From an uncultured Chthonomonas sp. (lineage in GTDB: Bacteria > Armatimonadota > Chthonomonadetes > Chthonomonadales > CAJBBX01): a stretch of DNA of 48,503 nt. The notes beneath the pieces are model-generated. The model had not been told where the DNA came from, searched no databases, and worked only from the letters and a program-made list of their open reading frames with translations. The stretch covers positions 1 to 48,503 of the forward strand of contig CAISJD010000081.1 of NCBI GenBank assembly GCA_903885605.1, read 5' to 3'. The position numbers and the translations under genes are program-made. This document shows positions 30,416 to 44,437 of the stretch, one piece after another (position 1 is the stretch's first letter; every line of letters begins with the position of its first letter).

Positions 30416-31038
30416 ACGTGGATGGGATGTGTGGAGTGGTCGTAGACCTTCTTCTCGTCCCAGGGCAGGGCCACCTCCACCGGAGCTTTGGCGAAGGGGT
30501 GGAAGTAGACGATGGTCATGTTCCGGGGCTTGCGCCGGAGCGACTCCCGCATGTTCTCCATCACCTTCTCCATGACCGGCTCGGGGAAGGGGTTGTAGAA
30601 GTAGAGGTACGTGTAGGGGTCCAGGTCGTCGAAGGTGGTGGCGTCGGCGACGTAGAGCGTGGCGTTCTTGAGCCTGCAGATCTCCAGGTTGCTCCGGCCG
30701 ATGCGGATCAGCTTCTCCGAGAGGTCCAGCCCGTCGATGCGGCCGAAGGGGAACTCGGCCATGGTGATGAGCGCCCCGGCCTTGCCGCAGCCCAGGTCGA
30801 TGATGCCGTCCTCCGGCCCGATGGGCAGCTGCTTCAGGACGAACGCCAGGTCCGGGCCGCACGAATCGCTGTACATGAAGCCCGCGCCTCGGGGCAGGCC
30901 GATGGCGCGCGGGCTCTCGAAATGGATGTCCACGCCCATCTTGTTCAGCTTGGCCTTGTAGGCCAGTGTGGCCGGACGGAACTTGCGGAGGAGATGCAGC
31001 ATCGCCGTCGCTCGCTCTAGTGGGCTCTTCGCCGCCAT
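30382..31038 (-). CDS. SAM-dependent methyltransferase-like protein
   Basis: A 218-residue class-I methyltransferase-like protein. Motif I is GIIDLGCGKAGALITMAEF, followed by an acidic motif II (IDGLDLSEKLIRIGRSN) and DATTFDD; the YFYNPFPEPVM block occupies the motif IV region. The N-terminal part, FRPATLAYKAKLNKMGVDIHF, is less typical. The start is placed at the ATG at 31038, nine bases after an AGGAGG; the ATG at 31044 is an alternative. Substrate unknown. The C-terminus is encoded within the 3' end of glgB on the opposite strand. Confidence 0.8.
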   Translation of the reverse strand: MAAKSPLERATAMLHLLRKFRPATLAYKAKLNKMGVDIHFESPRAIGLPRGAGFMYSDSCGPDLAFVLKQLPIGPEDGIIDLGCGKAGALITMAEFPFGRIDGLDLSEKLIRIGRSNLEICRLKNATLYVADATTFDDLDPYTYLYFYNPFPEPVMEKVMENMRESLRRKPRNMTIVYFHPFAKAPVEVALPWDEKKVYDHSTHPIHVYFKAAAGSRT

Positions 31039-31156
31039 GGTCATGCACCTCCTCGAGTCCCCGCCGGCGCACCGGTCGGCTCGCTTCATGCTACCCTGTA
31101 GCCTGCCGGACGCGGCGGATCGTCCCTCCGGCAAACGACGCGAGGAGCCGCCCGCC

Positions 31157-32113
31157 ATGCACATCGACCCCGACGAGATCACCCAGGAGCCCGGAGCCTA
31201 CCGGCTCTGGCTGCGGCTGCCCGAGGCCGTCCGCGTTCCCATCGGCGCCCTGGGCGAGAGCGAACTGCCGGCGGGCCTCTACGCCTATAGCGGCAGCGCC
31301 CGGCGAGGCATCCGCGGCCGGGTGCGACGCTACCTGCGCCCCACAGGCGTGCTGAAGTGGCACGTCGACCATCTGCTGCCCCACGCACAGGTGGTGGAGC
31401 TGGAGGCCCTGCCCGGCGGCGGCCCCGGCGAGTGCGCCCTCCACGCCGAGCTGCTGGCCATCCCCGGCGCCGCCGAGCCCGTGCGCGGCTTCGGCTCCAG
31501 CGACTGCCGCTGCGGCTCTCACCTGGCCCTCCTGCCGCCCGGCTCACCGGCGCCCGCCGTGGCCCACACGCGGCTACGCACCGGCGAGGAGATGACGGTT
31601 CGGCTGTTGCGGCCCGACGACGGCCCGCGTCTCGGCGCCTACTTCGCCGGCCTCTCGGAGCGGACGCGGTCGCTCTACGGCCCGCATCCCTTCACGCAGG
31701 AGGAGGCGGACGCGATCTGCGCCACGCTGGACCCCGCCGACATGCTGCGGGTGGTCGGCGAGCTGCCGGACGGACGGCTCATCTCCTACATGCTGCTCCA
31801 GATCGGGGTGCGGCACATCGACGCGGAGAAGTACCGGGCGCAGGGCATCGAGCTACCCGAGGGCGAGTGCGCCGCGTTCGCGCCGTCGGTGCTGGACGGC
31901 CTGCAGGAGACGGGGGTCGGCACGGCCATGGCGGGGGTCCTCTTCCGCATGGCGCGTTCGCGAGGCATCCGCACCGTGAACCTCTGGGGCGGCGTCCAGG
32001 AGCGCAACACCCGCGCCCGCCGCTTCTACGAGAAGCTGGGCTTCCAGAAGATCGGCGAGTTCATGGCAGGCGACCTGAACAACTACGACATGGTCTGCCC
32101 GCTGCGTGCGTGA
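31157..32113 (+). CDS. DUF123 (GIY-YIG-like) and GNAT acetyltransferase fusion
   Basis: A 318-residue two-domain protein. Residues 1-125 match DUF123: GAYRLWLRLPEAV, SELPAGLYAYSGSARRGIRGRVRRYLRP, KWHVDHLLPHA, and the closing GFGSSDCRCGSHL. This domain is often attached to endonuclease III-like proteins. Residues about 145-318 are a GNAT acetyltransferase (MTVRLLRPDDGPRL, GVGTAMAGVLFRMARSRG, NTRARRFYEKLGFQKIGEF). GAGGAG nine bases before the ATG at 31157 sets the start. The pairing is unusual. The gene diverges from the methyltransferase, with a 118-base gap between the two starts. Confidence 0.85.
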   Translation: MHIDPDEITQEPGAYRLWLRLPEAVRVPIGALGESELPAGLYAYSGSARRGIRGRVRRYLRPTGVLKWHVDHLLPHAQVVELEALPGGGPGECALHAELLAIPGAAEPVRGFGSSDCRCGSHLALLPPGSPAPAVAHTRLRTGEEMTVRLLRPDDGPRLGAYFAGLSERTRSLYGPHPFTQEEADAICATLDPADMLRVVGELPDGRLISYMLLQIGVRHIDAEKYRAQGIELPEGECAAFAPSVLDGLQETGVGTAMAGVLFRMARSRGIRTVNLWGGVQERNTRARRFYEKLGFQKIGEFMAGDLNNYDMVCPLRA

Positions 32114-33762: not shown

Positions 33763-34176
33763 TTACCAGCCGCCCGCCTCCGCCACGCGCGCCATCTCCT
33801 CGGCGAACGACGTCGGGAGCCAATCGACCTTGTGGAACACCCGCAAGCGCTCCCCCGGAGTGAAGCGCGCCAGCGTCTGCGGGTTCTGCACGTTGGTCAG
33901 CACGGCCACCGGAGTCTCCGGGCAGTGGGCGCGGAGGACCGAGTAGAGGAGGACGCCGGTGATGAGGCCGTTGTCGCTGGCCTTGGGCGTGAAGAGCTTG
34001 CCCGGCGGCATCATGATGTCCAGCACGATGATATCCGGGCAGGTGGCGCCGGCCTCTTCCACCGCCCTGTCCGGGATGACGCACTGGAGGACCTCGAAGC
34101 CCTTCCGCTCCAGCGCCGACACGTGGTACCAGTTCGGCGTAACGTCGTCATCCACAAACAGAAGCCTCTTTGCCAC
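33763..34176 (-). CDS. Stand-alone response-regulator receiver protein
   Basis: A 137-residue receiver with nothing attached. The acidic pocket is VDDD (Asp9-Asp11), the phospho-acceptor is Asp53 in IIVLDIMMPP, and the switch Thr94 and Lys116 (FHKVDW) are present. The loop after the acceptor (GKLFTPKASDNG) is longer than usual. It is co-oriented with the histidine kinase, whose stop is only eight bases upstream of its GTG start (34176), so the kinase is its likely partner. No DNA-binding or enzymatic output domain is present. It may act by protein-protein contact or as a phosphate relay. Confidence 0.88.
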   Translation of the reverse strand: MAKRLLFVDDDVTPNWYHVSALERKGFEVLQCVIPDRAVEEAGATCPDIIVLDIMMPPGKLFTPKASDNGLITGVLLYSVLRAHCPETPVAVLTNVQNPQTLARFTPGERLRVFHKVDWLPTSFAEEMARVAEAGGW

Positions 34177-34184
34177 GATCCTGC

Positions 34185-36701
34185 CTATCCCTTCCGCCCG
34201 GGCGGCTGAAGCGCCAGCTCGCCCGGCAACGTGATGGTAATCTCGGTGGGTTGGGCCGTGTGGGTCACGCGGACCGAGCCGCCGTGGGCCTCCACGATCT
34301 GCCGCACCACGAAGAGCCCCAGGCCCTGCCCCGCCACGTTGCGCTCCAGCGCGTTGCGGCCCCGGGCGCCCTCCTGGAAGATGCGCTCGTCGGCGCCGGA
34401 TGGGATTCCCGTGCCCCGATCGCGGAAGGTTATCACATAATCGCCCCCGCGCCGGTCACCGGCGATCTCGACGTAGAACGCATCGGGATCGCTGAACGCA
34501 TACTTGATGGAGTTCGACAGGAGGTTGAACATCACCTGCTGGAACTGGCTCCGGTCGATCCAGAGGCGCGGCACGGCCTCGAAATCGTCGTACTGGATCC
34601 GGTTCTCGCTGAAGCGCTTGCCGCGCAGCAGCAGGCCCGCCTGCCGCACCGCCGCCGCGATCACCTCCGACTTCAGGAACGTGGGCTGACACTCCAGCGG
34701 CAGCGAGGCCCGCGCCGACCTCAGGACATCGGCGTTGCCCACCAGCCGCCGCATGATGTCGCACCAGGAGAGGATATCACCCAGGTAGTCGTACGGTAGC
34801 ATCTCCCGCACGCCCCTGGTATGCTGGATCAGGTCCACTGCGCCCCGGATGGAGCCCAGCGGGACCTTCAGCTCGTGGGTCAGGCGCCCCAGCGCGGCGA
34901 TGCGCCGCTCGTCGGCCAGCCGGGTCACCAGGTGCGGCACCACGGCCTGCCCGATGGCGTCCAGGATGGCCAGGTCGTCGTCGGAGTACATGGCCCAGCG
35001 GCCGTCGGCGGAGCGCTTGTTCTGGCACCGCACGACGCCCACCACCTCGCCGCCGGAGTCGAGCAGCGGAGCCACGAGGAATGAGCCCAGCTGCCGTCCC
35101 ACGGTCTCCACGCTCTTGGCCACCCGTCCCGGAGCCTCGTGGGCGTCGGCCCCCACGACGGGCTCCTCGTTGGCCCAGACGCCCCCGGTGATGCCCTCGC
35201 CCTTGGCGTAGTGCGTCTCGCCCTCGTCCACGCGCCACTGCAGGCCCGTGGTGCTGGCGGCCTCCAGCCGGTCACCCACGGAGTCGACCACGAAGATGGT
35301 GACGCCGTCGCACACGAGTAGCCGCGCCACGAGGTCGCGGACGCGGTCGAGGAACCGGCACGCATCCTTGCCCCTGCCCGCCGCCACGTTTACCGCGGCG
35401 GCAGCGTAGGCGCAGACCTGATCCATGGCGGCGTCGGCGGCGCGACCCACGAGGCTTCCAAGGGCTCCCAGGTCCCGCGCCGAGACGCCGGGGTCGGACT
35501 GCCGGTAGAAGAGGTTCGCGATGAGACGCACGTGGTCGGCGTTGCTCGGGTCTGCGATGGGAACGGAGATCAGTGAGCGCATCCCCAGAGCGTTCACAAT
35601 CTCCGGAGCGCATAGCTCGGCATCGGGCCGGCCGTAGGGCAGGCCGGGCTGCGGGCTGGTGAGGTCGAACTGGGTGGCGGCCTGCCGGTCTACGGCGATG
35701 CCGCTCAGGGCAGGGCCACACTGGAGGGTCCGGTGCTCCACCGCGCTGCAAGCGGGGCTGACGCCCACAAGTGTGCCCAGGTCGCGGCTGGGGCTGAAGG
35801 CCCAGAGCGACGCCAGGTCGGCCTGAGAGACATCGCGGAGGGCCTCCGTGATGTTTGTGTACGACTGCTCCAGATCCTCGGACGAGGCGACCGCCAGCGT
35901 CCGGGCGAAGTGCGAGACCATCTCGGGCGGGCACGCTTCAGGAGCCACCATGGCCGGGCGCACGCGGTAGGCGCCCCCCCCCGGAGGCGCCGGCCGCGGG
36001 AGCAGCTTCCGATCGGAAAGCCAGCAGGCGCTTCGGTAGGCGCTGGTCAGCGGGTCCGTGCGCGACCGGTCCTGCTCCACAACAGCCCAGACGCCGGGGG
36101 CGCCCTTGCGCCACTCGGCGATGAAGGGCTCCAGCGGCACAACGCCCTCGCCCAGCTCGGTGAAGCCCCGCGAGTATCGGTAAGCCGAACGGCCGTACTC
36201 CGGCGTCCAGTCCTTCAGATGCACCGAGGCAAGCCGCCCGACGCACTGCCGCAGGGCGAGGGCCGGGTCATCCCCGACTATATGGAGGTGCGCGCTGTCC
36301 GGGATGATGAGTAGTTCGGGATGCTCCTCCAGCAGGGCGTGGGCGGCGGACATGCGGTGGAGCGGCCGGAAGGTGATCGGATGCAGCGCCAGGCGGTGGC
36401 CCGCGGCCAGCGCGTCCTCGGCGTGTGCGGGGTTCCAGGCCTCGATATACAGGTAAGGCATCCGCACATCGCGGCAGTAGGCCGTGCGGTCGAATATGCT
36501 GCCGCCGGCCAGGCCGAGCAGGTGCAACCCGCGCTCATCCAGCAGCCTGAGCAACTCCTCGATGGGCGGCAGGGCCTGGGGCGCCTGCGAGAACTCGATG
36601 CCCCGGTAACCCAGGGCGGCGAGCGCATCCAGCACGCCGGGCAGGTCGGCGAACGTCGGGCCGAATGCGATGGTTTGGTAGCCGATCTGCACGCCGTCCA
36701 A
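34185..36701 (-). CDS. Hybrid sensor: xylose-isomerase/IolE-like TIM barrel, two GAF domains and histidine kinase
   Basis: An 838-residue protein. Residues 1-225 read as an IolE/AP-endonuclease-2-like TIM barrel: GYRGIEFSQ (Glu36), LIIPDSAHLHIVGDDP (Asp135, His138), SVHLKDW (His161), FTELGEGVVPLEPF and WAVVEQDRS (Glu209). The metal-ligand pattern of sugar-phosphate isomerases is kept. Two GAF-like domains follow (about 270-430 and 445-595). The kinase core has the phospho-acceptor His609 in LTHELKVPLG, an N-box FNLLSNSIKYAF, and G-boxes DRGTGIP and GQGLGLFVV. No transmembrane helix is evident, so sensing is cytosolic. The start is a TTG at 36701 with GGGAGG five bases before it. The fusion is highly unusual to my knowledge. 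Confidence 0.88.
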   Translation of the reverse strand: MDGVQIGYQTIAFGPTFADLPGVLDALAALGYRGIEFSQAPQALPPIEELLRLLDERGLHLLGLAGGSIFDRTAYCRDVRMPYLYIEAWNPAHAEDALAAGHRLALHPITFRPLHRMSAAHALLEEHPELLIIPDSAHLHIVGDDPALALRQCVGRLASVHLKDWTPEYGRSAYRYSRGFTELGEGVVPLEPFIAEWRKGAPGVWAVVEQDRSRTDPLTSAYRSACWLSDRKLLPRPAPPGGGAYRVRPAMVAPEACPPEMVSHFARTLAVASSEDLEQSYTNITEALRDVSQADLASLWAFSPSRDLGTLVGVSPACSAVEHRTLQCGPALSGIAVDRQAATQFDLTSPQPGLPYGRPDAELCAPEIVNALGMRSLISVPIADPSNADHVRLIANLFYRQSDPGVSARDLGALGSLVGRAADAAMDQVCAYAAAAVNVAAGRGKDACRFLDRVRDLVARLLVCDGVTIFVVDSVGDRLEAASTTGLQWRVDEGETHYAKGEGITGGVWANEEPVVGADAHEAPGRVAKSVETVGRQLGSFLVAPLLDSGGEVVGVVRCQNKRSADGRWAMYSDDDLAILDAIGQAVVPHLVTRLADERRIAALGRLTHELKVPLGSIRGAVDLIQHTRGVREMLPYDYLGDILSWCDIMRRLVGNADVLRSARASLPLECQPTFLKSEVIAAAVRQAGLLLRGKRFSENRIQYDDFEAVPRLWIDRSQFQQVMFNLLSNSIKYAFSDPDAFYVEIAGDRRGGDYVITFRDRGTGIPSGADERIFQEGARGRNALERNVAGQGLGLFVVRQIVEAHGGSVRVTHTAQPTEITITLPGELALQPPGRKG

Positions 36702-36827: not shown

Positions 36828-38417
36828 ATGGCGAGGATACTCATTGTCGATGACGAGCCGGGCATCCGCAAGACGCTTGCGCTGTTCGTCGGGGCCGACG
36901 GCCACGATGCGCTGACCGCCGCCTCCGCCGCAGAGGCCCTTGAGGACATGGAGGCGGAGCCGGCCGATGTCGTGATCACCGACGTCATGATGCCCGGCGC
37001 CAGCGGCATCGACCTGCTCTTCCGCATACGCGGCCGGTGGCCCCATACGCAGGTCATCGTCATGACCGGCGCGCCGAGCCTGGACACCGCCCGCGAGGCC
37101 ATCCGGGCCGGCGCATTCGACTACCTGGCCAAGCCCGTGGGCAAAGACACGATCCGCCGGGTCACCATGGCGGCGACGGCGCTTCGATCCGCCATCCTCG
37201 ACAAACAGGCGCTGGAGGCCGACAATGAGCGCTACGAGGCGTACCTCGAAGAGCTGATCGATGCGCGCACAGCGCACTTGCAGCGCCGCGTCAGCCAGAT
37301 GCGGGAGCTGATGCAGTTGACGGGCGCCGTCAACGCCGGCGCCGATGAGCAGTCCGTGCTGCGCCGCATCCGGCAGGCAGTCATCAACGCCTATGGGTTT
37401 GACCGTGCCGGCCTCTGGCTGTATGACACCGCCAGCGGGCTGATCCTGGGATCCTACGGCACCGACCGGCATGGCGACATGACCGACGAGAGCCACATTC
37501 GCCTCCACGTTGACGACCCCGGCGCCGCCGGCTTCGCGCCGGTGCTCAAGGGCGAGGCTCCATACCTCTATACCACGGACATGCAGGCCGAGCACCGCCA
37601 CGCGGAGGGGCACCATATGCATGGCGTCCTCCACCACCTGGTTCTGCCCATGCGGGCCGGGTCCGACGCCGTCGGCGCCATAGCGATCGACAATGCCCTC
37701 ACCAACCGGCCCATCGGCGAGGACGAGATCGACGACCTGCTGCCCTTCGCGGCCATCGCAGCCGTGGCCATTCGCAACAGCCGTCTCAATGACGCCCTTC
37801 GGCAGGAGATCGCAGACCGGCAGGAGGCCGTGGCCGCTCTGCAGTCGCGGACGGCCGAGATGACCCTCCTCTGCGATGTTGCCAGCAGCGTGGCGGGCGC
37901 CGAGGACGAGGCGGGGTTCTACGCGGCGCTCACCGACGCGCTGTGCAAGAGCCTCCCCTGCGACAACCTCGTGTTGGCGGCATACAGCGCGGCGGCAGCG
38001 AGGCTTCGCGTGATCTATGCGTGGTCCACCACTGTCGGAGTGGCTGACCCGACGAACTGGCCCATCCTGCCCGTCGCGCCCGACGGCGGCGGCACGGCCA
38101 GTGCTGTACTGCGGAATGGCACGACGACGGTCTACTCCGACTACCTGGCCGCCCGGTCCGGCAGCACAGCCACCTACTACATCGACAAGGCCGGCGGCAT
38201 CCATGATGTAGTGCCGACGGATGCCTCCAACCTTCCCCGCTCCGCGGCCTTCGCGCCCCTGCGCGTACGCGGCGCCGTGGTCGGCCTGCTGGAGGTCTTC
38301 TCGAACCGCCTGGACGCCTATACCCCCGACCACTATCGCCTACTCGACTCGATCGCCGTCTACGCCGCCGCCGGCCTCCGCAGCCTGGGCATCCTGGATC
38401 GCGTGAGCTACGAGTAG
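36828..38417 (+). CDS. Receiver protein with coiled-coil linker and two GAF domains
   Basis: A 529-residue protein divergent from the kinase. Residues 1-120 are a receiver with Asp8-Asp9, phospho-acceptor Asp52 (DVMMPG), Thr80 and Lys102. A helical linker (about 125-165) leads to a first GAF-like domain (about 165-330), a second linker, and a second GAF-like domain (about 345-520). It ends without any kinase, cyclase, DNA-binding or phosphatase output. It may regulate the divergent kinase, or sense a ligand under phosphorylation control. A TAGAAT at 36784-36789 could be its -10. The 126-base divergent gap shows no strong -35. Confidence 0.85.
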   Translation: MARILIVDDEPGIRKTLALFVGADGHDALTAASAAEALEDMEAEPADVVITDVMMPGASGIDLLFRIRGRWPHTQVIVMTGAPSLDTAREAIRAGAFDYLAKPVGKDTIRRVTMAATALRSAILDKQALEADNERYEAYLEELIDARTAHLQRRVSQMRELMQLTGAVNAGADEQSVLRRIRQAVINAYGFDRAGLWLYDTASGLILGSYGTDRHGDMTDESHIRLHVDDPGAAGFAPVLKGEAPYLYTTDMQAEHRHAEGHHMHGVLHHLVLPMRAGSDAVGAIAIDNALTNRPIGEDEIDDLLPFAAIAAVAIRNSRLNDALRQEIADRQEAVAALQSRTAEMTLLCDVASSVAGAEDEAGFYAALTDALCKSLPCDNLVLAAYSAAAARLRVIYAWSTTVGVADPTNWPILPVAPDGGGTASAVLRNGTTTVYSDYLAARSGSTATYYIDKAGGIHDVVPTDASNLPRSAAFAPLRVRGAVVGLLEVFSNRLDAYTPDHYRLLDSIAVYAAAGLRSLGILDRVSYE

Positions 38418-38569
38418 GGGTTGAGGGCGGGGATGATCGCGGACCACACGGTGGCGCGTCATTGATTCGCACCCATCCGGTAAACTTGGCAAATGCCCCC
38501 TGTGCCGCGCCGAATAGACGTCGACATCCTCGAGGGCCTCGCACTGGTCAGTATGGAGGGCAGGGCCAC

Positions 38570-41500
38570 GTGGAGATGCCGGCCGGCGATGCCAATCTGG
38601 TTTGCACCATAGTTGCCGCGACTACCGTTTCCTATGCATCGTATGTAAATCATGTCGCGATAATCAGCAGTATATCGGTGGAGAACCGGGGCCCCGGTTC
38701 ACTGCGCGACTGCGTTGTCTCCCTCACCATGGAACCCGCGTTGGCCGAACCATGGGAGCGCCGCGCCGATGCCCTGGAGCCCGGAACGGTGACCGAGTTC
38801 GGGCCGGTGGATCTCGTGGTATCGCCGGCTGAGTTGTCACGGGCCACCGAGCGCACGCCGGCCCACCTGATCCTCACCGTCACCGTTGGTGGCAAGCCTG
38901 CTCACCAGTCTGCCCATAGGGTCGATGTCCTGGCCTTTGATGAATGGCCCGGCAGCGCCATGGTTCCTGATCTGCTTGCGGCCTTTGTTACGCCCAACCA
39001 GCCATACGTCCAGGAGCTCCTGCTCGCCGCGTCCAAGCGCCTGTCCGCGCAGGCCGGTGATGGATCCCTCAGCGGGTACCAGTCCGGCTCGCGCCGGCGC
39101 GTTGCCGATACCGTCGAGGCTATCTATCGGGCGCTCTGCGAGGCAGCAATCGGGTACTGCGTCCCTCCCGCCAGCCTCGAGGTCCACGGCCAGCGTGTGC
39201 GCCTGCCCGACGGCATCAGGGCCGGGCGTCTGGCAACCTGCCTCGACGTTGCCCTCCTGGCCGCCTCCTGTCTGGAACAGGCCGGGCTGCATGGCCTGGT
39301 CATCATGGTCGAAGGGCATGCATTCTGTGGCGCATGGCTGGATGAACGAACGTTCGGCACGAGCACCGTCGATGACGTGACCTTGCTTACGAACAGGCTT
39401 GAGGACGGCAGCGGCGAGATCGTCGTCTTTGACCCGACCTGCGCTACCCAGTCGTCCGGCACGCAGTTGCCCTTCACCGGGGCCGTGGCTGCGGCCCGGG
39501 GGCGTCTGCAGACGGCGTCCGACTTCCAGTACGCCCTTGATGTGCGGAAGGCCCGCCAGGCCGGCATTAGGCCATTGCCGAGCCAAGGGCAAGGTGCGGC
39601 GGAGCGCGAGGTCGCCGAACCGGGGCCGGAAGTCGGCAGTGGAGTGGACGCGAGTGGGTTCTCCGTCCGGGAGGCCGATCGCGACGCCTCGGGGCGTGAG
39701 GCCACACGGCTTGATGCCTGGCAGCGGCGCTTGCTTGACCTGACCTTACGCAACCGCTTGCTGAACTTCAGGCCCACAAAGAAGGCGCTACGGCTCGCAG
39801 TTGTTTCGCCGGCGAGCCTGGAGGATGCCCTTGCTGACCAGAAGGAGCTCCGATTGGCGCCGGCCCCGTCTGACTGGCAGCGCACGATCCGAAGCAGGCA
39901 GCTGGCTACGCAGCGTAACGGCGTCGATCCTGTGGCAGCCCAGCTCGCCGACGAGCTCAAGAACGGCATCCTGCCGCTTGACCTCGACCAGGCGGCCTTC
40001 GCGTCCGCCGTCACCGCCGTGTACCGCGATGCCCGCACCGGCCTTGAGGAGACCGGATCGGACATCCTGTATGTCGCCATTGGCCTCCTCCGCTGGTTTG
40101 AGGCAGATCAGAGCGAGCAGCATCGTTCAGCGCCACTGCTCCTCGTGCCGGTGCGCCTTACGAGGGCTCCGACCGGCCAGACCTTCACACTCCGGGGCGC
40201 CGACGCCGAGACGGTGGCGAATGTCACCTTGCTTGAGAAGCTCCGGCATGACTTCGGCATCTCTACCGACGGCCTTGACCCCTTACCGGCCGATGAGAGC
40301 GGCGTGCACGTGGCGGAGGTTCTTGCCCGCTTCCGGGAGGCCATCAAGGATAGGCCGCGCTGGGCTGTAGCCGAGGAGGCCTGGCTATCGACGTTCACAT
40401 TTGGTAAATTCCTTATGCTGCAGGATTTGAGGACTCGTCAGGAGGAGTTGAAACAGGCGCCGCTTGTGGCCAGCCTGATCCGAGGCGCCATGGCCTGGAG
40501 GCCTGAGGCGGACCTCCCACAGCCCCACGACCTCGACCGGACTACGGCGCCGGGCCAGATCATCTGCCCGCTGTCGGCCGATTCAAGCCAGACGGCGGCC
40601 GTCCATGCCGCTGCAGGAGGCCACACGTTCGTCCTCCACGGTCCGCCCGGCACAGGGAAGTCCCAGACCATCACCAACATGGTCGCCCACGCACTGGCTC
40701 ACCAGAAGACGGTGCTGTTCGTCGCGGAGAAGGCCGCAGCCCTGAATATGGTGTACGGCAGGCTCCAGAAGCTTGGCCTGCACCCGTTCTGCCTCGAGCT
40801 GCACTCAAGCAAGGCCGGGAAAGCTGCGGTCATTGAGCAGTTCAGGGAAGCCTTGAGCTACGCCGGCGGCGCGATGCCCGAGCAATGGCAGCTGCGAGCG
40901 AACGAACTCGCCACGGCGCGCGATCGCCTGAACGGGCATGTTGAGGCCATGCACCGGCGCCGGGCGTCGGGCCTCACCATTCACCGCGCAATCGCCCAGC
41001 TTTCGCATCTGCCCGAGCTTCGAGCGCCCATTGTTCTTGATCCCACCGCGATCGGCGCGGAGAGCCCGGAAGCGTTCTCCTTGCGGCGTACGGTGGCCGA
41101 GGATCTGGCAGGCGCCGGGGCAGCCTGTGGCGGCCCGTACGGCCACCCGTGGCGCGGATGCAGGATCAGCTCATGCCCTCCCGGTGCGAGCCGCACCGTA
41201 GGCGCTCGCATCGCGGATGTCGTCTCCGCCCTGGAGCAGGCCGTAGAGGCCACCACACCGGTCGCCTCCGCGCTGGGTGTGCAGGGCGACGGCCTCTCAC
41301 GGCAACAGCTAAACGGACTGGCGGAAGCCACAACGGCCATGCTCAATGCCGGCCATCTGCCCAAGGGCTTGCTCACCGCTACGGACTGGACTGCCCTGCA
41401 GGCTGCCGTGAAGCTATGGGTCGAGCACGGCAGAGGTCACGATGAGGTGCGGGACGCCCTGACAGCCGGGCGGTACACAGAAGCTGTGCTGGCGCTGGAC

Positions 41501-44437
41501 GCCGACGGCCTGTTGACGGACCTGGTGGCCGCCGACACGAAGTGGTTCGTGCCGCGCTGGATGGAGCGGCGCAAGGTCGCTGCGACCATGAGGACCACCG
41601 TCCGTAGGGGCGCCAAACTCGTGCCGGCCGAGATGGAGGCCGATCTGCAGGCCGTAGCCCGAGCCAAGCGCGAGAAGGCGGCGGCCGACGCCCAGGCGGC
41701 CACGGTCCAGGCGATCCTCGGCAACGCTTGGAGCGAGGCGTCGCACGACTGGGTCGCGATCGAAAGGGCCTCACGTTCAGGCGCCGACCTTCGGGCGGCA
41801 GCCACCCGCGTCGCCGCCGGTGACAGCGCCGTGGCACGGACCCTCCTGGCGCACTGGGAGGATGTCATCCGTCGCTCCGCGGCGCAGCCGGACGGCGAAC
41901 TGGGGGGCATGCTGCGCGCCCTGCCGAATGCTCTTGTGCATCTAGACCAGGTCCTGGCTGTCCTGGATGCGAGCATTGCCATTGAGCCTCAGTGTCCGCT
42001 GAAGGAGGCGACTGGCCGCGAATGGCCTAAGCGAGCCCGGGAAGCCCTGGACCGCTGGTCCGGCAATCTGGCAAGCTTGTCGCCATGGGCGCGCTATGTG
42101 GCGGCGGCAGGCGAGGCAACCCGGCTGGGGCTCGGCCCGGTTGTGGCGGCCTATGAGGCAGGGGAGCTCAACTCCGATGAGGTCGCCGGCGCGGCCCGGT
42201 CCGCTCAACTCACAAGCTGGCTGGAGGCTGAGGTGGGGAGCGACGAGACATTGAGGGGCCTGAGCGGCGACGGCCTGAGGCTGCAGGTGGCACGGTTCCA
42301 GCAACTGGACGACCAGTATGCGGACCTGAGCACGCGGGAGGTCCTGGCGCGCTTGGCGCAGCGGGCTCCATCCGGGTGGGCCGCAGCGTCGGGGAACTCG
42401 GAGATGGCTGTCCTGAGCCGCGAAATCCAGAAGCAGCGGCGCCACATGCCGCTCCGCAAGCTCCTCGGGCAGGTTCCCTCACTGCTGGCAAGACTCAAGC
42501 CCTGCCTGCTGATGAGCCCGCTCTCCGTGGCGCAGTTCCTCGGCCCCGACGTGCCGAGGTTCGATCTGGTGATCTTCGACGAAGCCTCGCAGGTGCCGAC
42601 ATGCGATGCGGTCGGAGCCCTGGGGCGCGCGAACGCGGCCGTCGTAGTGGGAGACCCAAAGCAACTCCCGCCGACCAGCTTCTTCGCCGGGAACACCGAC
42701 GAGGATGAGGACGTGGTGGAACTCCAGCAGGACTTGGAGAGCATCCTCGACGACGCTATCGGGCTGGCTATCCCCCAGATGCACCTGCAATGGCACTACC
42801 GAAGCCGCCACGAGGGGCTCATTGCCTTTAGCAACGCACACTACTACGAGGGGCGCCTCTACACCTTTCCGTCGCCGGACGACCAGCATCGCTCGGTGCA
42901 CTTCCACAAAGTGGCCGGCACCTACGGCCGCTCCGGGTCCAAGCAGAACCCGGTCGAGGCCCAGGCCGTCGTCGCGGAGTTGCTGCGGCAATTGCGCCGT
43001 GGGGATGTGCGGGAGCCGTCCGTCGGCGTCGTGACCTTCAGCGCGGCCCAGCAACGCATGGTGGAGGACCTGCTGGACGCGGCTATCCAGGACGATCCTG
43101 AGCTACAGCGCTACCGGTACAGCGTGCCGGAACCAGTCTTCGTCAAGAACCTTGAGAATGTGCAGGGCGACGAGCGGGACGTGATCCTCTTCTCGGTAGG
43201 GTACGGGCCTGATGCCCAGGGCCGGATCAGCGTCAACTTTGGGCCGCTGAACAGGGACGGCGGTTGGCGCCGCCTGAACGTGGCGATCTCCAGGGCCCGG
43301 CGCGAGATGCACGTCTTCGCGTCGTTCGAGCCGGAGGACCTGGACATCAGCAGGACCCAGAAGCAGGGCGTCGGCGATCTGCGTGCGTTCATGCAATATG
43401 CGCGTTCCGGCAAGCAGGCCATCGCCGCGCGGGCCTCGCTACCGGGTGACGGTGAGCCGGAGTCGCCGTTTGAGGCGGCGGTGGCGCAGCGCCTCCGGGA
43501 CCAAGGGCTGGTCGTGCATGGCCAGGTAGGTTGCTCGGGGTACCGGATCGACATTGGGGTCGTCCACCCGGACCACCCGGGCCGCTACATCCTCGGTGTG
43601 GAGTGCGACGGGGCGATGTACCACAGCGCGAGGTCGGCCCGCGACCGCGACAAACTGCGCGAGGCCGTCCTTAAGGGGCTCGGTTGGAACCTGCACCGCA
43701 TCTGGTCCACCGAGTGGTGGGAGGATTCCGGTCGCCAGGTCGACAATGTCGTTGCGGCTGTAGAGCGCCTACGGTCGCTGTCCGTGCGGGAGACGCCCGC
43801 CCCGGTCGAGGTCGCACCTGCGGCGCCACCTGCCCAGGCCCCGCCGCCGGCCCCGCAACTGCCCCTGCGTCGATCCAACGCGACGCCGTACCGGACCACC
43901 GATCTCGGCCAGTTCCCTCCGTACGGTGGGATCGGAGGTTACGAGAACCGGGCCCTGCTGGCGAAGCAGATTCGCCAGGTCGTGGAGACCGAGGCGCCGA
44001 TCAGCAGATCGCTGCTGTACCGGCGGGTCCGGGAGGCATGGATGGTTGGCCGCTTGGGAAGCCAGATCGAACTGGTCCTGGACTCGGCTAGCAACGCGGC
44101 AGGGCTGCACTTCACCGGCGACGGCGTCCGCGAGTTCGCATGGGCCGACAGCAAGGCTCCCGACGCGCTCACTACCTACCGCGTGTGCGACAGTGACGCA
44201 GGGCGGCGCTCCTCGGCCGATATCGCCCCGGAGGAGGCAGCCGCTGCGGCCCTCGCCGTGCTTGCGATGCAGGGCGGCATGCCTGAGCAAGAGCTTGCCC
44301 GCTCCGCCGCCCGGGAGCTTGGCTATAAGCGCCTTGGCAAGGATGTGGAGGCCCATATGGCTGCCGGCGTGGCCATTCTGCTGGCCAAGGGCCGCGCGGA
44401 GCGCAGTTCCGACGGCCGTATCGTCCCGAACCGATGA
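38570..44437 (+). CDS. Giant DUF4011-helicase-Vsr-like nuclease with transglutaminase-like N-terminus (Hhe-like)
   Basis: A 1955-residue protein. N-terminal: a beta-rich part (about 10-110), then a transglutaminase-like fold with Cys224 (LATCLDVALL), His250 (EGHAFCGAWL) and Asp288 (VVFDPT). DUF4011 starts near residue 380 (LDAWQRRLLDLTLRNRLLNF). An SF1 helicase follows with GPPGTGKS at 691-698, DEAS at 1337-1340, GDPKQLPPT, HYRSRHE and NVAISRAR. Next is a Vsr/MTES_1575-like nuclease (about 1630-1717, YRIDIGV, VECDGAMYHS, DRDKLREAVLKGLGW), then DUF3320. This architecture resembles the antiphage protein called Hhe, from memory. Start GTG 38570 has GGAGGG nine bases before it; a TTG at 38462 is less likely. 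The first 200 bases are visibly richer in A/T than the neighbours. Confidence 0.88.
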   Translation: MEMPAGDANLVCTIVAATTVSYASYVNHVAIISSISVENRGPGSLRDCVVSLTMEPALAEPWERRADALEPGTVTEFGPVDLVVSPAELSRATERTPAHLILTVTVGGKPAHQSAHRVDVLAFDEWPGSAMVPDLLAAFVTPNQPYVQELLLAASKRLSAQAGDGSLSGYQSGSRRRVADTVEAIYRALCEAAIGYCVPPASLEVHGQRVRLPDGIRAGRLATCLDVALLAASCLEQAGLHGLVIMVEGHAFCGAWLDERTFGTSTVDDVTLLTNRLEDGSGEIVVFDPTCATQSSGTQLPFTGAVAAARGRLQTASDFQYALDVRKARQAGIRPLPSQGQGAAEREVAEPGPEVGSGVDASGFSVREADRDASGREATRLDAWQRRLLDLTLRNRLLNFRPTKKALRLAVVSPASLEDALADQKELRLAPAPSDWQRTIRSRQLATQRNGVDPVAAQLADELKNGILPLDLDQAAFASAVTAVYRDARTGLEETGSDILYVAIGLLRWFEADQSEQHRSAPLLLVPVRLTRAPTGQTFTLRGADAETVANVTLLEKLRHDFGISTDGLDPLPADESGVHVAEVLARFREAIKDRPRWAVAEEAWLSTFTFGKFLMLQDLRTRQEELKQAPLVASLIRGAMAWRPEADLPQPHDLDRTTAPGQIICPLSADSSQTAAVHAAAGGHTFVLHGPPGTGKSQTITNMVAHALAHQKTVLFVAEKAAALNMVYGRLQKLGLHPFCLELHSSKAGKAAVIEQFREALSYAGGAMPEQWQLRANELATARDRLNGHVEAMHRRRASGLTIHRAIAQLSHLPELRAPIVLDPTAIGAESPEAFSLRRTVAEDLAGAGAACGGPYGHPWRGCRISSCPPGASRTVGARIADVVSALEQAVEATTPVASALGVQGDGLSRQQLNGLAEATTAMLNAGHLPKGLLTATDWTALQAAVKLWVEHGRGHDEVRDALTAGRYTEAVLALDADGLLTDLVAADTKWFVPRWMERRKVAATMRTTVRRGAKLVPAEMEADLQAVARAKREKAAADAQAATVQAILGNAWSEASHDWVAIERASRSGADLRAAATRVAAGDSAVARTLLAHWEDVIRRSAAQPDGELGGMLRALPNALVHLDQVLAVLDASIAIEPQCPLKEATGREWPKRAREALDRWSGNLASLSPWARYVAAAGEATRLGLGPVVAAYEAGELNSDEVAGAARSAQLTSWLEAEVGSDETLRGLSGDGLRLQVARFQQLDDQYADLSTREVLARLAQRAPSGWAAASGNSEMAVLSREIQKQRRHMPLRKLLGQVPSLLARLKPCLLMSPLSVAQFLGPDVPRFDLVIFDEASQVPTCDAVGALGRANAAVVVGDPKQLPPTSFFAGNTDEDEDVVELQQDLESILDDAIGLAIPQMHLQWHYRSRHEGLIAFSNAHYYEGRLYTFPSPDDQHRSVHFHKVAGTYGRSGSKQNPVEAQAVVAELLRQLRRGDVREPSVGVVTFSAAQQRMVEDLLDAAIQDDPELQRYRYSVPEPVFVKNLENVQGDERDVILFSVGYGPDAQGRISVNFGPLNRDGGWRRLNVAISRARREMHVFASFEPEDLDISRTQKQGVGDLRAFMQYARSGKQAIAARASLPGDGEPESPFEAAVAQRLRDQGLVVHGQVGCSGYRIDIGVVHPDHPGRYILGVECDGAMYHSARSARDRDKLREAVLKGLGWNLHRIWSTEWWEDSGRQVDNVVAAVERLRSLSVRETPAPVEVAPAAPPAQAPPPAPQLPLRRSNATPYRTTDLGQFPPYGGIGGYENRALLAKQIRQVVETEAPISRSLLYRRVREAWMVGRLGSQIELVLDSASNAAGLHFTGDGVREFAWADSKAPDALTTYRVCDSDAGRRSSADIAPEEAAAAALAVLAMQGGMPEQELARSAARELGYKRLGKDVEAHMAAGVAILLAKGRAERSSDGRIVPNR

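Follow-up and report, generated by a model that had tools for sequence, protein, structure and literature searches.

In the window, a stretch of 48,503 nucleotides from an uncultured Chthonomonas sp., one gene encodes a histidine kinase that looks like a previously undescribed sugar-type sensor, new in its input domain. The reading that we regard as probable is a cytosolic two-component sensor kinase that uses a repurposed sugar-isomerase-type TIM barrel as its input and forms a two-gene module with a receiver-only response regulator. The same architecture was found in seven genomes: the window's species and two sister species (G000, G001 and G002), three further Armatimonadota lineages (G025, G042 and G117) and one Pedosphaera bin (Verrucomicrobiota). 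Such recurrence across species had been named in the initial annotation as a mark of a real architecture. Recurrence in two phyla, the presence of an own response regulator and an apparent movement between phyla make the fusion look real rather than a sequencing accident.

Architecture of the kinase gene and its partner

The kinase gene is one open frame with the extent given in the initial annotation. It runs from a TTG start at 36701, with GGGAGG upstream, to a stop at 34185 (Table 1). In Pfam searches the AP_endonuc_2 match (53.5 bits, cut-off 31.1) as well as GAF2 and HATPase_c (70.9 bits) scored above the cut-offs, and AP_endonuc_2 was present in all five members scanned. HisKA stayed at 20.3 bits, below its cut-off of 26.9, yet the match spans His609. 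The kinase core was described as complete, and so it is: the N box (N726/N730/K733), the G1 box (D761/G763/G765) and the G2 box (G791/G793/G795) are all kept. The phospho-acceptor H609 together with P614, N726, N730, D761, G763, G765, G791, G793 and G795 is invariant in five members. Of the two GAF domains initially proposed the second is clear, whereas GAF1 is marginal, as it misses the cut-off of 22.4 bits with near-complete coverage of the profile (1-130 of 133). No GAF1 was detected by Pfam in the distant members. The kinase has no transmembrane segment, the best 19-residue hydropathy window being a strand of GAF2. A full-length AlphaFold model was poor (pLDDT 48).

Table 1. Coordinates of the fused kinase, its domains and the adjacent regulator in the window
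Feature	Position	Strand	Remarks
Fused protein: barrel - GAF1 - GAF2 - HisKA/DHp - HATPase_c	34185..36701	-	838 aa, TTG start
AP_endonuc_2/xylose-isomerase-like TIM barrel, about residues 1-235	35997..36701	-	Pfam, AlphaFold, Foldseek, profile alignments
Linker and GAF1 (marginal), residues 241-441	35379..35981	-	GAF 21.0 bits
GAF2, residues 450-586	34944..35354	-	Pfam GAF 59.3 bits
HisKA (DHp), residues 605-656, phospho-acceptor His609, Pro614	34734..34889	-	Pfam, conservation
HATPase_c, residues 716-826	34224..34556	-	Pfam, conservation
Receiver-only response regulator, 137 aa, phospho-acceptor Asp53	33763..34176	-	Response_reg 29.3 bits

A frameshift or a mis-assembly could have joined two separate genes, and a run of G near 35980 does lie at the domain border. 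This explanation was rejected and is extremely improbable. The frame stays open across the G run in the independently assembled genomes of the two sister species (barrel identity 94% and 90%), the fusion recurs, and the GC content by codon position stays even along the whole ORF, also at the supposed border near nt 36000. The barrel and the kinase are thus fused in one frame, as had been proposed.

The response regulator begins 8 nt after the kinase. Its Response_reg score lies just below the Pfam cut-off of 30.2 bits. Each of the five lineages has a regulator immediately downstream of the kinase, and D10, D53 and K116 are kept in it. In G025 and G117 the regulator (L090:1342-2379 and L057:7042-8040) carries an extra C-terminal region of about 200 aa. 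These two regions have no Pfam match and are weakly alike (BLASTP E 5e-4); they may represent an output domain that is absent elsewhere. In the receiver of the window, Asp53 is followed by a long loop (MPPGKLF...GLITGVLLY). This receiver matches the N-terminal part of a PADLOC SduA model at 29.5 bits, next to 29.3 bits for Response_reg.

Barrel fold and predicted metal site

Residues 1-246 were modelled with AlphaFold from an alignment of five rows, which yielded a clean (beta-alpha)8 barrel whose eight strands alternate with helices (pLDDT 81, pTM 0.82). When this model was compared with the PDB by Foldseek, the top matches were all xylose-isomerase-like (E about 1e-9) and comprised 5hmq, IolE, UlaE, ketose 3-epimerases, YcjR, AL1, AtOGE and AtHYD, with 3-keto-sugar enzymes among them. 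A profile of the seven fused barrels found IolE (3cny, E 1e-10) as the best solved structure, followed by Art22, AtOGE, AtHYD and UlaE. Together with the Pfam match, these results bear out the initial assignment of the N-terminal domain to an IolE/xylose-isomerase-type TIM barrel.

The active site can be compared with that of AtOGE, where Mn2+ is liganded by His132 (beta5), Asp163 (beta6), His189 (beta7) and, weakly, Glu233 (beta8), and where His134 is the catalytic base (PMC10628242). The four ligands align with H107, D135, H161 and E209 on strands 5 to 8 of the kinase barrel, and His134 aligns with position 109. The predicted metal quartet is invariant in all seven fused barrels. Of the 230 barrel columns without gaps, 33 show no variation across five lineages, and all four metal positions are among these (chance about 4e-4). 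The initial annotation had listed Glu36, Asp135, His138, His161 and Glu209 as metal-ligand-like. Asp135, His161 and Glu209 hold, His107 had been missed, and Glu36 and His138, invariant in seven of seven sequences, yet lie outside the primary quartet. Since Glu36 aligns with AtOGE Glu39, which contacts the metal only in a displaced site of one subunit (PMC10628242), that list was only partly right.

Position 109 differs between the lineages. A histidine is found in G025, G042, G117 and the Verrucomicrobiota member (LHPH/LHQH), and an isoleucine in the window's genus (LHPI), in all three of its species. The barrel had also been called intact-looking. This applies to the predicted metal quartet but not to the catalytic-base position of the window's protein, nor does the barrel reach the IolE equivalog model TIGR04379 (24.9 bits, cut-off 290). 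The barrel is compact and lacks the HNHxWEF glutamate of stand-alone relatives. It contains an invariant K.W and G.S...GF..L..G segment; the conserved stretch after strand 7 (KDW...YGRS...RY..GF..LG.G), in part common to AtHYD, may form a ligand lid.

Among the known relatives, IolE (myo-inosose-2 dehydratase) shares the fold, the beta5 His, the beta6 D..H, the beta7 His-x-K-D and the beta8 E with the kinase barrel, but it is a stand-alone protein and has in 3cny an HHHMGT stretch that the kinase barrel lacks. AtOGE (3-keto-O-glucoside beta-eliminase, 8bvk) has the same His-Asp-His-Glu set on strands 5-8 and a GF..(L/I)G.G segment; unlike the kinase it stands alone, as an enzyme with 259 aa, and its catalytic His134 is replaced by Ile109 in the window's barrel. 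AtHYD (8ro4), UlaE (3cqj), the ketose 3-epimerases and YcjR (6wn6) are members of this fold family as well, with TM-scores of about 0.65-0.71 on the query, and have no kinase fusion; AtHYD shares the GRS segment after strand 7, whereas UlaE has a Glu in place of the beta5 His of the fused barrels. A precedent for a barrel fusion is provided by 5hmq, the top Foldseek match, in which an AP_endonuc_2 barrel is joined to a 4-hydroxyphenylpyruvate dioxygenase. That protein, however, is a fusion of two enzymes and not a sensor. Soluble sensor histidine kinases with the order GAF - HisKA - HATPase_c resemble the kinase described here and are likewise paired with a response regulator, but their sensors are GAF or PAS domains and not a barrel. 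To our knowledge, no such kinase carries an AP_endonuc_2 barrel in front. The initial annotation had likewise not known the arrangement as described, and no account of the fusion was found in the literature searched, which included few subscription papers.

The constraint on the protein is uneven. Identity of the window's protein to the distant members amounts to 30-36% in the barrel, 29-40% in the ATPase domain and 13-29% in the GAF regions, so the barrel and the kinase end are the most constrained parts and the GAF middle drifts. Among the three sister species the dN/dS of the barrel is 0.06-0.11, hence the barrel is under purifying selection. Synonymous divergence in the same comparison is about 0.45 in the barrel and drops to about 0.17 in the ATPase domain. 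A possible cause is that the 3' half of the kinase gene has undergone recombination or gene conversion.

Distribution, origin and apparent mobility of the kinase/regulator pair

In a survey of Armatimonadota, in which carriers were called by length and score, the fusion was present in 6 of 291 genomes. In Verrucomicrobiota it was found in one and the same genome within a phylum sample (1 of 388) and an order sample (1 of 320). The collection-wide scan used two strict peptide patterns and would therefore miss distant members in other phyla. The fusion was found neither in viral contigs nor in plasmid records. The frames comprise 903 aa in G042, 807 aa in G117 and 896 aa in the Pedosphaera bin. 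In the four distant lineages the barrel identity is 28-37%. In G025 the fusion is split, as contig C545 ends within the gene and C218 starts with the remaining GAF2, kinase and regulator. In a tree with 30 stand-alone Armatimonadota barrels, all seven fused barrels group in a single clade (support 100/99), and the simplest reading of this grouping is a single origin of the fusion. As a side observation, the G000 genome contains 33 AP_endonuc_2 matches; several of them lie in frames of over 500 aa, so further AP_endonuc_2 fusions may exist.

The kinase/regulator pair appears to be horizontally mobile. In G042 the pair has a GC content of 33-35% within flanks of about 66-70%, and it separates an ABC ATPase gene from the corresponding permease gene. 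The two ABC genes abut in the congener G066, with about 45 bp between the aligned parts. A search for terminal repeats and target duplications at the G042 insertion gave just short chance matches. The pair in G117 has 44-45% GC compared to 54-56%. Here the synteny shared with a congener ends directly after uvrC, where the module begins; no clean empty site was seen in this comparison. On the Verrucomicrobiota contig the fusion gene (50% GC, genome 63-68%) adjoins a transposase gene. The tetranucleotide profile of this contig correlates at 0.75-0.86 with other contigs of the Pedosphaera bin, which speaks against misbinning, though not fully, as the contig measures just 6.6 kb and no further copy of its transposase occurs in the bin. 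In the window, the GC content of the pair matches its surroundings (70%). The genes that flank the pair vary by host and none points to a ligand.

Several neighbouring genes of the window were also inspected. A divergent gene (36828-38417, plus strand) encodes a response regulator that carries two GAF domains but no output domain; it lies beside the kinase in both sister species and was not seen beside the distant members. It is followed by a gene (38462-44437, plus strand) for a DUF4011/AAA helicase of 1991 aa that includes an MTES_1575 nuclease domain and scores 1294 bits with the PADLOC candidate PDC-S37 and 613 bits with Hhe. In both sister species the regulator gene with the two GAF domains and a glycoside hydrolase gene are neighbours and the helicase gene is missing. 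This gene therefore appears to be a defence candidate inserted in the window's genome alone. On the other side, the frame at 30968-32113 (plus strand) joins DUF123 and GNAT acetyltransferase domains.

Proposed working and alternative readings

Under the preferred reading, the barrel would hold a divalent metal via H107, D135, H161 and E209 and would bind a small intracellular compound, possibly a polyol or of keto-sugar type, beneath the loop after strand 7. Ligand binding would shift the arrangement of the barrel and the tandem GAF domains in the kinase dimer, and this shift may set, in either direction, the autophosphorylation of His609 and the phosphotransfer to Asp53 of the adjacent regulator. 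As the regulator has no DNA-binding domain, it would be expected to act by protein contact or by onward phosphorelay.

Alternatively, the barrel could be a working metallo-isomerase, dehydratase or eliminase, and its turnover, read as occupancy by substrate or product, would drive the kinase. The invariant metal quartet, the 3-keto-sugar enzymes among the closest solved structures and the His at the AtOGE catalytic-base position in four distant lineages are in line with such an activity, which we nevertheless consider unlikely, given the compact barrel without the HNHxWEF glutamate and, in the window's genus, Ile109 in each of the three species. Judged from this residue, catalysis has probably been lost in the window's genus, where the barrel more likely serves as a metal-dependent binding sensor than as an enzyme that is still active; in the His-bearing lineages the barrel may be catalytic. 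With similarly tentative standing, the pair may be a mobile cassette in which catalysis by the barrel is the input signal in some lineages and has decayed to pure sensing in the window's genus.

A ligand-free barrel retained for dimerisation or stability, with sensing left to the GAF domains, is less probable still. The dimer of AtOGE does form via helix alpha1 (PMC10628242). On the other hand, all predicted active-site positions are conserved across about 65-70% divergence, and the barrel is more conserved than the GAF regions. GAF domains are known ligand binders, and this fits the idea of a scaffold. That the pair does the sensing for a mobile conflict or defence system is a reading that we rate as very improbable. 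Its patchy distribution, the foreign GC in three hosts, the insertion into an operon, the SduA resemblance of the receiver and the defence-candidate gene nearby in the window would suit such a system; however, no effector accompanies the pair, the nearby candidate is missing at this place in both sister species, and the PADLOC matches concern generic receiver and ATPase parts.

If the sensor reading is true, a carbohydrate-enzyme fold would join the soluble input domains of two-component systems, and it would suggest that a sugar metabolite inside the bacterial cell is sensed by reusing the enzyme that once handled it. Some lineages have the putative catalytic His and others lack it, which offers a direct comparison for the change from enzyme to receptor and, should the cassette reading hold, this transition would be visible within one family. 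The kinase/regulator pair appears to move without a transcription factor, which raises the question of the regulator's partner in each new host.
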